Below, piece by piece: positions 819 through 12,553 of a stretch of DNA of 23,073 bases; position 1 is the stretch's first letter, and every line of letters starts with the position of its first letter. The stretch comes from a virus: positions 1 through 23,073 of IMG/VR virus record IMGVR_UViG_3300007541_000230; one strand, 5' to 3'. Position numbers and translations under genes: made by a program. The notes below the pieces were generated by a model that was not told the DNA's origin, did not search any database, and saw nothing but the letters and a program-made list of their open reading frames with translations.

Positions 819-880
819 TGGCTAAGAAAAAAATGTCAAAGAAAAAGAAAGCAGGCTGTGGCTGCGGAGGTAAAAAGTAA
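818..880 (+). CDS. 20-residue Lys-rich peptide with CGCGG motif
   Basis: The ATG at 818 overlaps the previous TAA (TAATG), and the frame ends TAA 878-880, again overlapping the next ATG. The product is only 20 residues: a run of lysines around two methionines, then AGCGCGGKK. The same one-base coupling on both sides, and the GGAGG (866-870) that serves the next gene, argue that this frame is translated as part of the operon. CGC followed by GG could bind a metal, but nothing proves it. Its length makes it easy to miss; conservation in relatives would settle it. Confidence 0.6.
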   Translation: MAKKKMSKKKKAGCGCGGKK

Positions 881-1143
881 TGCATAAATTTAGGTTCTTA
901 GCAAGTGAAGAAAGTTTTGAAAATACAGACACAACTACGGTTCCTCAAGGCTGTACTCATTTTGTTGTAGCTACTTCACATGGAGCTAATACTGATTACA
1001 ATCATGCTCATATGTCTATTGGTGCTTTAAGTGTAATTGTGCCAGCAGGACAGTTTGTAGCTATTGCACAGGCTACTGCTGGTACTGTTCTTACTGGTGG
1101 AGATAATACAGAATCTATTGCGTTTTACGCTATTGAATATTAA
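880..1143 (+). CDS. Hypothetical protein, 87 aa, beta-rich; possible head decoration protein
   Basis: The start at 880 overlaps the previous stop by one base, with GGAGG at 866-870 as ribosome site. Unlike its basic neighbours it is slightly acidic and rich in small and beta-forming residues. Alternating hydrophobic stretches around HFVVATSH, SIGALSVIVPAG and FVAIAQATAGTVLTGG suggest a small beta-barrel or sandwich. There is no signal peptide or membrane helix. I do not recognise the family. Its position before two probable surface-exposed structural proteins and its beta-rich composition would suit a capsid decoration protein, but that is inference only. Confidence 0.75.
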   Translation: MHKFRFLASEESFENTDTTTVPQGCTHFVVATSHGANTDYNHAHMSIGALSVIVPAGQFVAIAQATAGTVLTGGDNTESIAFYAIEY

Positions 1144-1154
1144 GGAGAATAACA

Positions 1155-1508
1155 ATGCCAGCAATTTCAAAAGAACAAGCTTTTGCTTTAGTTTTGGGTG
1201 CTTATGTTGATCCAGCTAATCTTGCTAATAACACAACATTTGACATTAACTCAAGCTTAACAGGCACTGACAAATATAATTGGCTTTTTACAGGTAGCGT
1301 TGATTTACCGACAATTCCAGTTATTGGTAATTTAAATGCACTAACTTTTACTCTTGTAACCACTTCAACTGATGCAGGAAATAATGGTGTTCTTGATTAC
1401 ATTGAAGGTGGCTACATTGGTGGTACTGGACCATTAGATGGTTCTCTTTCAACTGCTGAATTAAATTACCACACCACAGGTCGTGGTATTTTTAAGAAAC
1501 TTAAGTGA
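1155..1508 (+). CDS. Structural-type protein, 117 aa, short paralog of the SGNH protein downstream
   Basis: The ATG at 1155 follows TAAGGAGAATAACA. The N-terminal 30 residues (AISKEQAFALVLGAYVD, then NNTTF) match the start of the next protein (LITPAQGFAMSRGLYID, then NNSTVF). The last 14 residues, NYHTTGRGIFKKLK, match its end, NYHKTGLKLFKKLK. Between them lie about 60 residues rich in T, L, G and D with beta character, in place of the hydrolase domain of the larger paralog. No catalytic motif is visible. The gene probably encodes the minimal form of a virion decoration or fiber-base protein. The family is not recognised. The DNA around the stop (AAGTGAGGT) is also the same in both paralogs, which supports a duplication. 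Confidence 0.8.
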   Translation: MPAISKEQAFALVLGAYVDPANLANNTTFDINSSLTGTDKYNWLFTGSVDLPTIPVIGNLNALTFTLVTTSTDAGNNGVLDYIEGGYIGGTGPLDGSLSTAELNYHTTGRGIFKKLK

Positions 1509-1517
1509 GGTAATCTA

Positions 1518-3161
1518 ATGGGATTAATTACACCAGCTCAGGGTTTTGCAATGTCTAGGGGGTTATATATTGATTTTACTAATATCAATAATAGCACTGT
1601 ATTTACTCCAACTTTTTCATTTAAAAAACTAGTCAGTAATACTCCTATTGATGTTATTAATCTTCCAGGATATGGCTATATTTTTCTAGGAAATAATGAT
1701 ACTTTTTCTTTTGTTCCTCCTGATACATTTATTAGTCGTTTAAATGCTTTAAATTTATCCTTTCATGGTAATACTAAAGTAAAACAAATGTTTGAAAATC
1801 TTATTAATGGAGAAGATTCTTTAGATATTGTTTTAATTGGTGATTCTAATGTAGGATATAGTGTAACAACAGGAATTTATGGTTATGCTAATGGTATATG
1901 CAATACTCTAATTAGTTTAGGAGTTCCTGTGTATGCTTCAAATCTTATTCCTTGTCTGAGTCGAACTGCTGCTGCTCCAGGTTCTTATAAATACATGAGT
2001 GAAGCTGGCGTTACAACTGTAGATCCTGGGCGAACCGCTAATCAAAGCGGCGTTAGTTGGCTTATTCCAGGAAATGAAACAGAATATACAGAAATTTCAG
2101 CTTTATGGAATTCAGGATCTAGTAATGAGTTATCTCCATCAGGCGGCAATACAAGACTAGATTGGTCGTTTTTAGATACGGGTGCTGTTACTAGCGGTTC
2201 ATATTATATTGAAGTATCGTCTGTATTTGGCATTAAAGTACCAATTACTTATCGTGTTGGATATGCTACATTTCCCTCAGGTGGTTTATTTTACCCCCGT
2301 ATTTATTTAACTTCTGGAATTACATTATCTACTACTACAGTTAACTCTACACGAAACGTAAGTGGTGCTTTATATGAAATCCTTGAGTTATCTGCAACAC
2401 CTTCAGACAAAAATAATCTTAACATTCGATGCAGTAAATTTGCTGGCTCTACAGCTGCAACTTCACCTTGCGGTTTCTTATTTGAGTCTGTAGTAAAACA
2501 GAATACTAAAGGTTTTTCTGTTTCGTCTTACTTACATCGTAGTGGCGGACAAACAAATACAAACATTAAAGCAGCAATTCAAGAAACTGAGTCTTCTACT
2601 TTAAAGATTTTTGTCAAAGAACTTAGAGACAGACAAATATATGCTGGAGGTTCTGGAAAAGTTGTATTCTTTACAAACTCAGGTGTTAATGGCAATGAAA
2701 TTTCAGCTGATTGGTTAACAGGAGTACAAGCTCTTGTTTCAAGTATTCGTAATGCATGGTTAAGCAATGGATTCCCTGAAGAAGATTTAGGTATTATTAC
2801 CTCAACAACAGCTCCTCCTGATGCAAATTATATTTCAACTTCTTATACTCAATGGACTGCTCAAAATACTGTAGGTATAAATAATTCAGGATTTTTTGAA
2901 TTTAGTTTTATTTCTATGAGCACATTAACTTCTTCTGCTGAGTTAACTTCAAATCTTTACCATGCTGGAGCTGGAAACACTGTTCACTTAAGTAACGCAG
3001 GATATAATTTTGTCTCTAATAAAATTATCCAACAATTAATTAATGTCGACCCCATTGATACTTTACGATATGGTGGCGATATTCAACAAAACGGCTACCT
3101 CAGTCCATTTGAGGAAAATTATCATAAAACAGGTCTTAAACTTTTTAAAAAACTAAAGTGA
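1518..3161 (+). CDS. Probable virion protein with SGNH/GDSL-type hydrolase (esterase) domain, 547 aa
   Basis: The start at 1518 follows GTGAGGTAATCTA. The N-terminal 30 residues and C-terminal 14 residues match the 117-aa protein upstream. Inside, DIVLIGDSN (GDSN at 108-111) fits block I of SGNH hydrolases with Ser110 as nucleophile. RSGGQTNTN near 342-349 could give the block II glycine, SGVN (388-391) the oxyanion asparagine, and GNTVHLSNAGY (486-496) block V with His490. The usual Asp of the DxxH pair is Asn487 here, so activity is uncertain. About 180 residues of beta-rich sequence (roughly 150-330) lie between blocks I and II and may be a carbohydrate-binding insert. Phage SGNH domains often deacetylate surface glycans; that role here is inferred. 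Very AT-rich. Confidence 0.8.
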   Translation: MGLITPAQGFAMSRGLYIDFTNINNSTVFTPTFSFKKLVSNTPIDVINLPGYGYIFLGNNDTFSFVPPDTFISRLNALNLSFHGNTKVKQMFENLINGEDSLDIVLIGDSNVGYSVTTGIYGYANGICNTLISLGVPVYASNLIPCLSRTAAAPGSYKYMSEAGVTTVDPGRTANQSGVSWLIPGNETEYTEISALWNSGSSNELSPSGGNTRLDWSFLDTGAVTSGSYYIEVSSVFGIKVPITYRVGYATFPSGGLFYPRIYLTSGITLSTTTVNSTRNVSGALYEILELSATPSDKNNLNIRCSKFAGSTAATSPCGFLFESVVKQNTKGFSVSSYLHRSGGQTNTNIKAAIQETESSTLKIFVKELRDRQIYAGGSGKVVFFTNSGVNGNEISADWLTGVQALVSSIRNAWLSNGFPEEDLGIITSTTAPPDANYISTSYTQWTAQNTVGINNSGFFEFSFISMSTLTSSAELTSNLYHAGAGNTVHLSNAGYNFVSNKIIQQLINVDPIDTLRYGGDIQQNGYLSPFEENYHKTGLKLFKKLK

Positions 3162-3170
3162 GGTGAAACT

Positions 3171-3326
3171 ATGAGTATGTTCGGAATGGGCGGTATGGGT
3201 ATGGGCGGTATGGGCATGGGTATGGGCAATGAAATGCCAATGCCAAAAAAGAAGACCAAGAAGAAGGTCACTAAGAAGGCCCCTGCTAAGAAAAAGAAGA
3301 CAATGACTAAGAAGAAGATGAAGTAA
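3171..3326 (+). CDS. Met-Gly/Lys-rich microprotein, 51 aa
   Basis: The ATG at 3171 is preceded by GTGAGGTGAAACT. The first 24 residues are almost only Met and Gly (MSMFGMGGMGMGGMG and onward), with ten methionines. The rest is a lysine-rich tail with the PAKKKK type of pattern. By count, 12 of 51 residues are Met and 16 are Lys. The Met-Gly part is encoded by tandemly repeated ATGGGCGGT units. The stop TAA overlaps the next ATG (TAATG). The frame is real by ribosome site, coupling and operon position. A flexible hydrophobic head and a nucleic-acid-binding tail can be seen, but the function is unknown. Confidence 0.72.
   Translation: MSMFGMGGMGMGGMGMGMGNEMPMPKKKTKKKVTKKAPAKKKKTMTKKKMK
3186..3227 (+). 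repeat. Tandem ATGGGCGGTATGGGY repeat in the Met-Gly microprotein
   Basis: Two adjacent 15-base units (3186-3200 and 3201-3215) differ only in the last base. They are followed by two 6-base ATGGGY units (3216-3227). The repeat is in frame and encodes alternating Met and Gly, so copy number could change by slippage without breaking the frame. Confidence 0.8.
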
Positions 3327-9550: not shown

Positions 9551-12500
9551 ATGGGCTGCTTTGATTTTTCTTCTGATGATCCAGAATATTTAGATTCATT
9601 TAATGGTGTGGCCTCTATTGAAGTTAGCTATGCTAATACAGGAGTAGGACCCTATTCCTTTAGCTCTATTAGTCGACTTTGCGATATCCCCGCATCAGAT
9701 CAAATCTGTGTATATGTAGATGATGGCGTTACCGAAACGCAACTTACTTATGCAATTGACTACTCAATTAGTGGCGAAAATGTAACTTTAATTAATGCTG
9801 TCAGTCAAGCAACTATTATTATTCGTAGATGCACTCCCAATACTAAAATGTTTAGTACATTTGTTGAAGGAGCTAAACTTACAGCTAAACAACTAAATCT
9901 TGTGCTTTCGCAGTTATTGTTTATTTCACAAGAAAAAACTTTTGTTCCTTCTACACAAAATCATTATTATCCTTTATCAGCTAAAGTAACACCGTGGAAT
10001 GTATCTATTACATACGCAGCAAACCAATATGTTAATTACAACGGATCGATCTATCAATCTAAGATTTCGGGAAATGTAGGAAATCAACCAGATAGTAGCC
10101 CAACTGAGTGGGACTTTATTGAATTTGCAACTAATGGTTTTATTATAAGTGGTTCGCCTCTTAGCTATCCTGTAGAGTTTGATCTTTCTGGGGTCCAACT
10201 TAATCAAGGACTTGTTTGGAATGGTACTAAGTTTACCGCAGGGTTTATTGAAGGCCCCTCGTTAGATAACTTAAGTGATGTTATTATTACTTCAGCAAAT
10301 ACAGGTGATTTACTTCGCTATAATGGATCTAATTGGGTTAACTTTACCCCACCTTTTATTATGCTATCAAATGATTTTGAGTTTAATGTTTGGGCTTATT
10401 ACAAAAACCAAGCTTCCCTTAATCAAGCTAAAAATGATTCCGCAATTACTTTAAATGCGGACAAATGGAATCCATTTAAAGACACCGAGAGGTGGGTTAT
10501 ACCCAATATTCCTACTGTTTATGGGGTAATTAAAAATACTCTTCCATCAAGCGAACAACCTCCTGGAAGTGAAAATACCGCTGTTGAAGATTTCTTTACT
10601 CGGGTCTTAAATGCTGTAAACCTTGTTGAGACAAACACAGGAAATCCCATTAAAGCCCAGCTATATTGGAACTTAAATCTTAGGCGTTACCCAGCTTGGG
10701 AAGATACTGATAGCGGCGAACCATTAGATTCGTTTAGAACAGTTTTTTGGGATAAACCTTTAGAATTATACAATGTAGATATGTGGTCAAATCCCAAAAG
10801 TTTACAATACTCAGGTACTAATCTAGGCAAATCTACTGGTGAATTATATGAACGAGAAGCTTTACAAAATGCTTATTGGGCTGAGCTATATACAGGGGAA
10901 AATACTATAACATTTCAATCTAAGCTATATGGATATAATATTGAAGATAAAGGATTTTATTTGTCTGTCCCTGAATGCTACACCACATCTCTCAGCAATT
11001 TACCTATTATTAATGAAATAACGGACAATTATTATGCATTAAGTGACATTATTACACCTGAAATAATTCAAACTAATTTAAACGATAATGAGGGAATTGA
11101 CCGAGACAACTATTTAGCACAGCTACGCGACTTTGCTTTTGCTGGTTTTAGGACAGACAACACAGGATCTGGTACAAACAAAGGAAGAGATAAAACAGCT
11201 AGAACCTTTAAGAACAAAATGCTAGCTGCTAACTATAATGGGTTTAATAATGTTTCATTTAAACGACTAGAAACAGAAGAAGATGCAACAGATGTTCTTT
11301 GGAAAATGCCTGCACAAATTATTTATTTTAATAAATATGCTTTAGCTTTTGCAAATAATTCTACAGCAACTTTTGGAATTGAAAACGCGTTTGTTAATTT
11401 AATGAAGGGTACTCGGTTTACTGGTCGACATGTTGCAGAACAAGAATCTACTTTAGGTACTTCAACTATTCAATATGCAACAGGTGGTATATACAAAAGT
11501 GATAAAGTGTGGAGCGCGTGGTGCTCACGCTGGAGTGATGATGCTCCGGACAATATATCTTTTAATGAAGCGGATATTGAGTGGATGGTTTATAACTGTC
11601 CAAATACAACAAACAACTTTGGTGATTTCTTTGCAAATAAATTTCTTAAAACTAATCCAGCCACAACAGGTCCTAATCCCCCTCGATCTGGTACTATCTA
11701 TCCTTGGCTATATCGACCAAATAATTTTCTAAAAGAGGGAAATGTTCCAAACGGAGAGCGACAATTGAATGGATCACTTGGTACTCATCTATTTAATTTA
11801 GATTATAATAAATTGTTTTCAGAAGCTCATAATTTTGTTTCAGACCCAAGAGATGAATATGTGTTTAGAGTAGTTTTAAAACCAACTTTAACGGCAGTTT
11901 TCCGCAACCCTGCTCACAATTCTGCAACACCTCAAACCGCTGTTATTGTAGATTACGGTTTTAGTGAAGAAACGGACTTAACTACGGCTAATAAAACAAC
12001 TTTAAGCGAAATCTTTAAAAAAAATAAATCCAATATAAATGCTAGTTTTAGGAAAGCTAAGTTTAATAAAGAAAATGTATTTATATATGTACAAAATGAG
12101 CATTTTGAAGAGCAAAACGGTATTGCAAGATATGTTTTAACTTTATGTATTTCTGTTCCACGACTAAAATCAATCGGCTATAGTCGAATTTTTAGAAGAG
12201 CTTTTCAATCTACGCCTACTAGTACCTATGTACCAGCTGCTCAGGACAATACCGAAGATACAGATAAAGACTTAGGTCCTTGGACTTTTGAATTAAAGGT
12301 TCCTATATGGAACGATCCAAGGACCGATTCAAATAATTTAGGGCTTAGTGGTTATGATCATCTTTATAGTAATGCTGGACCAACTAATGAGTGGACAGCC
12401 GTAGGCAAACCTCAATTAGTTGCGGGTCGTAATGAATGTGCTGTTAAGTTTTCAAGAATGGGAATTCCAAGTAATCTTTGGATTAAACTATCTATTCTTA

Positions 12501-12553
12501 ATTCCGATGGTACTTCAACTTTATTAAATTCTAATGGTTGGATTGTACCTTAA
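9551..12553 (+). CDS. Tail fiber, T7 gp17-like N-terminus with unrecognised C-terminal region, 1000 aa
   Basis: The start follows TAAGGAGAGACT. Residues about 20-130 match the T7 fiber tail-attachment domain: GVGPYSFSS, ICVYVDDG, YAIDYSISG, IIIRRCTPNTK, FVEGAKLTAKQLNLVLSQL. Residues 149-189 (WNVSITYAANQYVNYNG, IYQS, then PTEWDFI) resemble a small CBM5/12-like carbohydrate-binding fold. DNLSDVIITSANTGDLLRYN (about 238-257) is a linker pattern common in fibers. The remaining 730 or so residues are aromatic-rich and lack repeats, a chaperone motif or an enzyme motif I know. They probably form the receptor-binding part. T7 gp17 has 553 residues. Strongly AT-rich. Confidence 0.88.
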   Translation: MGCFDFSSDDPEYLDSFNGVASIEVSYANTGVGPYSFSSISRLCDIPASDQICVYVDDGVTETQLTYAIDYSISGENVTLINAVSQATIIIRRCTPNTKMFSTFVEGAKLTAKQLNLVLSQLLFISQEKTFVPSTQNHYYPLSAKVTPWNVSITYAANQYVNYNGSIYQSKISGNVGNQPDSSPTEWDFIEFATNGFIISGSPLSYPVEFDLSGVQLNQGLVWNGTKFTAGFIEGPSLDNLSDVIITSANTGDLLRYNGSNWVNFTPPFIMLSNDFEFNVWAYYKNQASLNQAKNDSAITLNADKWNPFKDTERWVIPNIPTVYGVIKNTLPSSEQPPGSENTAVEDFFTRVLNAVNLVETNTGNPIKAQLYWNLNLRRYPAWEDTDSGEPLDSFRTVFWDKPLELYNVDMWSNPKSLQYSGTNLGKSTGELYEREALQNAYWAELYTGENTITFQSKLYGYNIEDKGFYLSVPECYTTSLSNLPIINEITDNYYALSDIITPEIIQTNLNDNEGIDRDNYLAQLRDFAFAGFRTDNTGSGTNKGRDKTARTFKNKMLAANYNGFNNVSFKRLETEEDATDVLWKMPAQIIYFNKYALAFANNSTATFGIENAFVNLMKGTRFTGRHVAEQESTLGTSTIQYATGGIYKSDKVWSAWCSRWSDDAPDNISFNEADIEWMVYNCPNTTNNFGDFFANKFLKTNPATTGPNPPRSGTIYPWLYRPNNFLKEGNVPNGERQLNGSLGTHLFNLDYNKLFSEAHNFVSDPRDEYVFRVVLKPTLTAVFRNPAHNSATPQTAVIVDYGFSEETDLTTANKTTLSEIFKKNKSNINASFRKAKFNKENVFIYVQNEHFEEQNGIARYVLTLCISVPRLKSIGYSRIFRRAFQSTPTSTYVPAAQDNTEDTDKDLGPWTFELKVPIWNDPRTDSNNLGLSGYDHLYSNAGPTNEWTAVGKPQLVAGRNECAVKFSRMGIPSNLWIKLSILNSDGTSTLLNSNGWIVP

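Follow-up and report, generated by a model that had tools for sequence, protein, structure and literature searches.

Modular virion proteins usually consist of an N-terminal anchor followed by a C-terminal tool. In the branched receptor-binding systems of G7C, K1-5 and KP32, conserved docking peptides are combined with exchangeable enzymes, and in KpV767 the second receptor-binding protein is reduced to 69 aa with the docking peptide retained (PMC6872550). The phi29 head fibres (gp8.5), T4 Hoc, T5 pb10 and SPP1 gp12 are capsid decoration proteins that bind cell surfaces; such proteins attach to host or other cells via carbohydrates and add little to the stability of the capsid (PMC7602432). 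In the T7-like phage Syn5, the knob-like and horn proteins are extra capsid proteins (PMC10575957).

The locus presented here lies in IMG/VR record IMGVR_UViG_3300007541_000230, a 23-kb virus record of which positions 1-23,073 were analysed (the window). It encodes two adjacent proteins of 117 aa (P0001) and 547 aa (P0002), which share both of their ends, and homologous proteins with these ends occur in many related phages. With the systems of G7C, K1-5 and KP32 it has in common a conserved part, presumably for docking, joined to a variable and often enzymatic one, and the 69-aa protein of KpV767 is comparable to the empty copy P0001; however, the docking element in those systems is short and N-terminal, whereas here it is a two-part domain encoded between portal and scaffold. 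The function proposed, accessory surface binding, is like that of gp8.5, Hoc, pb10 and gp12, but no sequence relation to these was found, the virion location of the present proteins is presumed, and their cargo would be held within the anchor itself and differs by exchange even among close relatives. With the Syn5 proteins, compared here by description, the likeness is one of extra proteins in a T7-like phage. Judged by the features tested, P0001 and P0002 would belong neither to the decoration proteins nor to the branched tail systems, and the trait that appears to set the family apart is the placing of the cargo inside the anchor. A literature search found no description of the locus.

The window is that of a T7-like phage, with genes for a scaffold (PF05396, E 2.2e-8), a major capsid protein (phrog_267), tail tubes A and B, a gp17-like tail fibre and terminase. 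Compared with cyanophage and pelagiphage relatives, its capsid protein shows about 25% identity and its terminase about 38%, and it therefore represents a clade without a close isolate in the phage collection. The genes for P0001 (1155..1508) and P0002 (1518..3161) are both on the plus strand, as are their parts given below, and they precede the scaffold and capsid genes; the tail fibre is encoded separately, at 9551-12553, and has a T7 fibre N-domain. A portal (PF12236) is found upstream of the locus in the relatives L055 and L059, and a portal-like C-terminus in L087, so that the locus lies between portal and scaffold, a placement read from those contigs that extend to both. The first gene of the locus in the window (880-1143) encodes an 87-aa protein, and similar proteins of 85-290 aa, with the pattern PxxTTHxV...FVxL...VTFFKW, come first in the locus of many relatives. 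Positions 126-818 and 3171-3326 encode several small lysine-rich proteins, one of which has a MPKDACY...SAYASG pattern (phrog_727, E 9.4e-15), and a Met/Gly-Lys-rich peptide, which in most relatives lies between cargo and scaffold.

The sequence-only reading had picked out these two open reading frames and proposed that their products share both ends, and BLASTP, shuffling and profile searches agree that they do. In a BLASTP comparison of P0001 with P0002, the C-ends align over 38 aa with 47% identity (E 3e-6), the N-ends align over 82 aa with 29% identity (E 1e-4), and there is no credible match between the ends. Over 2000 shuffles, the N-ends score 72 against a shuffled maximum of 60, and the C-ends 71 against 45. 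Profile HMMs for each end were then trained solely on relatives shorter than 200 aa, with the window left out; they recover both ends in P0001 (N 2.6e-13, C 2e-13) and in P0002 (N 7.7e-5, C 1.5e-13), in each case at the extreme termini, while their best match outside the family has an E of about 1 and their best shuffled match 0.42. The N and C segments occupy residues 1-35 and 80-117 of P0001. In P0002 the N-terminal half is formed by residues 1-77 (1518..1748), as aligned with P0001 and with the N-part of the L055 protein (38% over 55 aa, E 9e-7), and the C-terminal half by residues 512-547 (3051..3158), which contain an EF-hand-like loop followed by a predicted helix and end in RYGGDIQQNGYLSPFEENYHKTGLKLFKKLK, the latter half being placed by sequence and by the C-end HMM match.

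Searched as profiles, the terminal segments occur in many relatives, which rules out that they are found nowhere else. Scanning with the scaffold protein yielded 71 loci, and 51 proteins with both ends were found, all at the same site before the scaffold gene and all in uncultured T7-like phages. Most loci with enough upstream sequence have one to three end-bearing proteins in the interval from a conserved basic protein to the scaffold, and these proteins start with I-S/T-xxQxxAL and finish with ExxYHxTGxxLxKKLK. The held-out HMMs recover the ends, at the extreme termini, in the majority of a further 18 large proteins, although in several large proteins the N-end by itself is weak under the small-only model. 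The reverse test, from large to small proteins, also worked. In a domain-profile search of 20 whole virus records, every match fell in this one locus and 19 of the 20 had at least one; the exception was L061. Distances between N-ends and between C-ends are correlated (Mantel r 0.51, permutation p 1e-4, 38 representatives), which shows only that both ends travel together, since shared descent alone could produce such a correlation. The family was without match in Pfam, PHROGs, the PDB and isolated phages. More specifically, searching isolated phages singly with P0001, P0002, the small protein of L004 and the large protein of L003 gave nothing credible, neither P0001 nor P0002 matched any isolated T7-like phage in the phage collection, a PDB profile search with the small domain gave no match, and one genome each of 84,980 prokaryote species contained no relatives.

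It had also been noted that bases around the two stops are shared. The shared bases, AAGTGAGGT, are indeed present, at 1503..1511 and 3156..3164, but they consist of a TGA stop that overlaps GAGGT, the Shine-Dalgarno sequence of the following gene (P0002 and the gene after it, respectively). Since this layout recurs in many end-bearing genes of relatives, they are not independent evidence of common ancestry, and we reject their interpretation as shared DNA ends. The overlaps do, together with the strict position of the locus in all examined records, suggest co-expression with the late structural genes, and both argue against the end-bearing proteins being intracellular or secreted proteins that lie among structural genes by chance. 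Several neighbouring proteins have no known relatives, and the upstream protein of L015 begins with what reads as a signal-peptide-like stretch, both of which would fit such an explanation; we nevertheless consider it improbable. The end-bearing proteins are most likely virion proteins, because of their conserved position among late structural genes, the stop/Shine-Dalgarno overlaps, and the adhesin-like or enzyme-like nature of the cargo described below.

The ends had been taken for two separate tags. Sequence comparison instead identifies them as the halves of one domain of about 115-195 aa, because uninterrupted copies of the domain are also found at the C-terminus in three proteins of 643-672 aa (L062, L064 and L058), where both segments follow an unrelated N-terminal part and lie about 120-150 aa apart. 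A full-domain HMM built from small relatives, with the window excluded, runs unbroken from residue 518 to 672 in the L064 protein (E 7.8e-9) and from 521 to 672 in that of L058 (E 1.2e-4), and an N-end model built from the large proteins has one match (3.5e-4) internal to the 643-aa protein of L062. In several other large proteins the same full-domain model is split, its N-part stopping at about position 85-112 and its C-part resuming far downstream. The small proteins also share the inner motifs NRLxxLF, YTLvTTST and LDYxxGG, and are therefore more than two tags. The domain thus occurs alone, split by cargo (in proteins with a total length of 380-1299 aa), or complete as the C-terminal part of a longer protein. 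P0001 (E 1.4e-26 with the full-domain HMM) is a minimal, cargo-free copy, and P0002 (E 7.8e-17) a copy split by an SGNH hydrolase unit. It had been suggested that the SGNH unit replaces the middle of the domain in P0002; it appears rather to be inserted into it. With the insert taken out of P0002 the domain scores about 76 bits instead of 58.5, but the best cut points are not sharp, and the domain boundaries in P0002 therefore rest on homologues and on the fold of the cargo. A joint alignment of P0002 with the small proteins was dropped, its SGNH part being misaligned. An AlphaFold2 (AF2) model of P0001, made with 30 relatives, had very low confidence (pLDDT 51, pTM 0.22) and was not used, and both ends of P0002 are below pLDDT 50 in its model. 

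A possible relation of the C-end to dockerin type I was considered and rejected: the C-end has a single DxNxNG loop where dockerins have two EF-hand-like repeats, the similarity is that of the loop alone, and hhalign of the C-end against the dockerins encoded upstream in relatives aligned 16 columns with a probability of 44%. Those upstream proteins deserve mention in themselves. Proteins preceding the cargo locus end in dockerin-like repeats in five relatives (L015:1664-2998, L020:3975-4619, L039:2732-3463, L043:2640-3449 and L011:708-2576); that of L015 matches Dockerin_1 (E 1.7e-5), and that of L020 also has a cohesin match (1.5e-5), the combination of cohesin and dockerin within one phage protein being unusual.

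The cargo of P0002 occupies approximately residues 78-511 (1749..3050). It is homologous by BLASTP to free-standing proteins of L061 and L032 (26-29% over more than 400 aa, E 3e-16 and 2e-14), which are 498-503 aa long, have no such ends and are encoded in the same locus, and it has shorter similarity to SGNH proteins of 496-537 aa that lie beside small end-bearing proteins in other phages. The SGNH assignment made from the sequence holds up well. Block I (GDSN, residues 108-111, 1839..1850, with the nucleophile Ser110), Gly389 and Asn391 of the block III GxN (389-391), and His490 of block V (2985..2987) are invariant in 11 homologues, and the fold comparison agrees, using a model of modest confidence (AF2, overall pLDDT 50 and pTM 0.58; pLDDT 70-86 in some of the central sheet). 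The Pfam scan did not detect the SGNH middle, and Foldseek of the model against the PDB gave no match below 0.001. A second structure aligner matched it to SGNH enzymes with Z 9-17.6, led by Campylobacter Ape1 (Z 17.6, 295 residues) and a second Ape1 entry (Z 17.4), with 293-298 residues aligned over model residues 78-512; the next SGNH enzymes reach Z 12.8 with 176-186 residues aligned. The Ape1-aligned range (78-511) independently coincides with the start and end of the homologous free-standing proteins.

The model also contains the beta-rich stretch that had been noticed between blocks I and II, at about residues 145-330 (1950..2507) as placed by the AF2 secondary structure and the length of the Ape1 alignment, although it is modelled with any confidence only in its later part, residues 145-239 being below pLDDT 50. 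We read the extra Ape1-aligned residues as this insert, so that Ape1 (8gld, 8gkd, 4k3u) would be the best structural match of the cargo with the beta-rich module included; NmApe1 has a carbohydrate-binding module inserted in its SGNH domain (PMC9487903). P0002 differs from Ape1 in that a sequence search found no Ape1 match for its cargo, and in having Asn for the block V Asp. The residue three before His490 is Asn487, and the usual Asp is absent from all 11 homologues except that of L055. Activity may therefore be lost in P0002, or may rest on a Ser-His dyad, such dyads without that Asp being known in CE2 enzymes of the SGNH superfamily (PMC9487903). As read from the sequence, the missing Asp lowers the claim of a canonical triad and not that of an SGNH fold, and catalytic activity is possible.

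Other end-bearing proteins carry quite different middles. In that of L055 the ends enclose a GDSL-type domain, a second and separate case (Pfam E 0.0068, under the cut-off), with an intact DTVH motif, and the 1299-aa protein of L057 contains RCC1 repeats (E 1.6e-12). A family of 380-476 aa has a middle that resembles a beta-sandwich lectin by sequence pattern only, a PDB search with this family giving nothing credible, and a further class is 459-464 aa long. The large upstream proteins of L003 and L004 (about 1045 aa) were considered as SGNH proteins on a weak alignment alone, and this was not relied on. The proteins with the whole domain at the C-terminus (L058:754-2772, L062:1839-3770 and L064:4227-6245) have N-terminal LTxQH, KTPV, GDSG/GDSS and GG patterns, which, as a reading of the sequence, are suggestive of a trypsin-like fold.

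If the ends were a packaging signal, the cargo could be taken into the head via the scaffold and ejected with the DNA, the esterase then acting on the cell wall. This would suit genes that immediately precede the scaffold, the small lysine-rich proteins that share this interval, and an Ape1-type fold, which fits a peptidoglycan substrate; however, adhesin-like cargo such as the RCC1 repeats of L057, and its fast exchange, fit exposure better, and cargo of up to 1299 aa would use head volume. Neither point is a direct test, and we regard such an internal location as quite improbable. Display of the cargo on the outside of the virion would fit better, and here capsid and tail attachment would be indistinguishable by sequence. 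A conserved docking end with an exchangeable enzyme is the rule for receptor-binding proteins (PMC6872550), an SGNH fold is present in the tailspike of cyanopodophage Pan3 (9vyh, Z 9.7), and variable fibre-like proteins are found in the same interval, so that, in a variant of the main model with another location, the domain could dock on an adaptor, nozzle or gp17-like fibre of the tail, with the loaded proteins as extra receptor-binding proteins, as in G7C and KP32. Against this, the genes precede scaffold and capsid and lie apart from the tail fibre gene, and the known docking elements are N-terminal, whereas here the cargo is inside the domain. A Pfam and PHROG scan of P0001, P0002 and the other scanned end-bearing proteins found no tail family except a weak match to a tail-protein PHROG (1.8e-4) over the RCC1 region of the 1299-aa protein of L057; an absent match leaves room for a tail anchor of a kind other than Phage_T7_tail or T4 gp10-like. 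On this evidence, tail attachment is possible but somewhat unlikely.

The conserved ends had been proposed to hold an exchangeable centre, and this is borne out both by the unrelated middles in many relatives and by near-identical phages with unrelated cargo. The scaffold has a median identity of 84% across 26 loci, and the small end-bearing protein one of 35%; the corresponding medians are 71% for the capsid protein, from 20 loci, and 83% for tail tube A, from 10. L032 and L036 have scaffold DNA that is 96.8% identical and no homologous protein in the locus. These identities establish modularity and the exchange of cassettes between phages, and by the same measure the locus turns over far faster than the adjoining capsid genes.

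Returning to the virion reading, we propose that the locus is a cargo cassette in a clade of uncultured T7-like phages, built on an anchor with inserted, exchangeable tools, a model that we hold to be fairly likely as a whole. The anchor, with N segment I-S/T-xxQxxALxxGxY and C segment GGDxNxxxxLSxxExxYHxTGxxLxKKLK, would probably bind the virion, and the stretch between the YTLvTTST element and the final helix would accept whole folded domains. The window would then have P0001 (117 aa) as its empty copy and P0002 (547 aa) as its loaded one. The latter holds a putative SGNH esterase of Ape1 type, whose insert would resemble a carbohydrate-binding module and whose most likely role would be to deacetylate or bind an acetylated host-surface or cell-wall glycan at adsorption. 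Cargo is swapped between phages at the locus while the flanking structural genes stay conserved. A counterpoint is that L061 and L032 have an SGNH protein in the locus and zero end-bearing proteins; the anchor is therefore not essential to every phage or cargo. More tentatively, the domain could be a virion socket of general use whose internal loop is permissive, allowing whole-domain swaps, so that one locus would supply several cargoes displayed side by side, the empty copy serving as a filler or spacer. If the proteins are on the virion, they would account for the way in which an uncultured T7-like clade alters its binding or digestion targets, and would offer a natural scaffold for display into which several hundred residues can be inserted.

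It is worth adding some smaller observations on the sequences used. A clear CBM_5_12 match (1.4e-7) lies within an SGNH-type protein of 715 aa encoded in the cargo locus of L023 (L023:5254-7401), and another CBM_5_12 match follows the T7-type N-domain of the window tail fibre (E 2.6e-5, just under the cut-off). The records G001-G005, which contain L075, L043, L057, L062 and L064, are 65-69 kb long and would be large for a T7-like phage if complete. Finally, a 14-kb contig (L005, IMGVR_UViG_3300025646_000902) is near-identical to the first part of the window.
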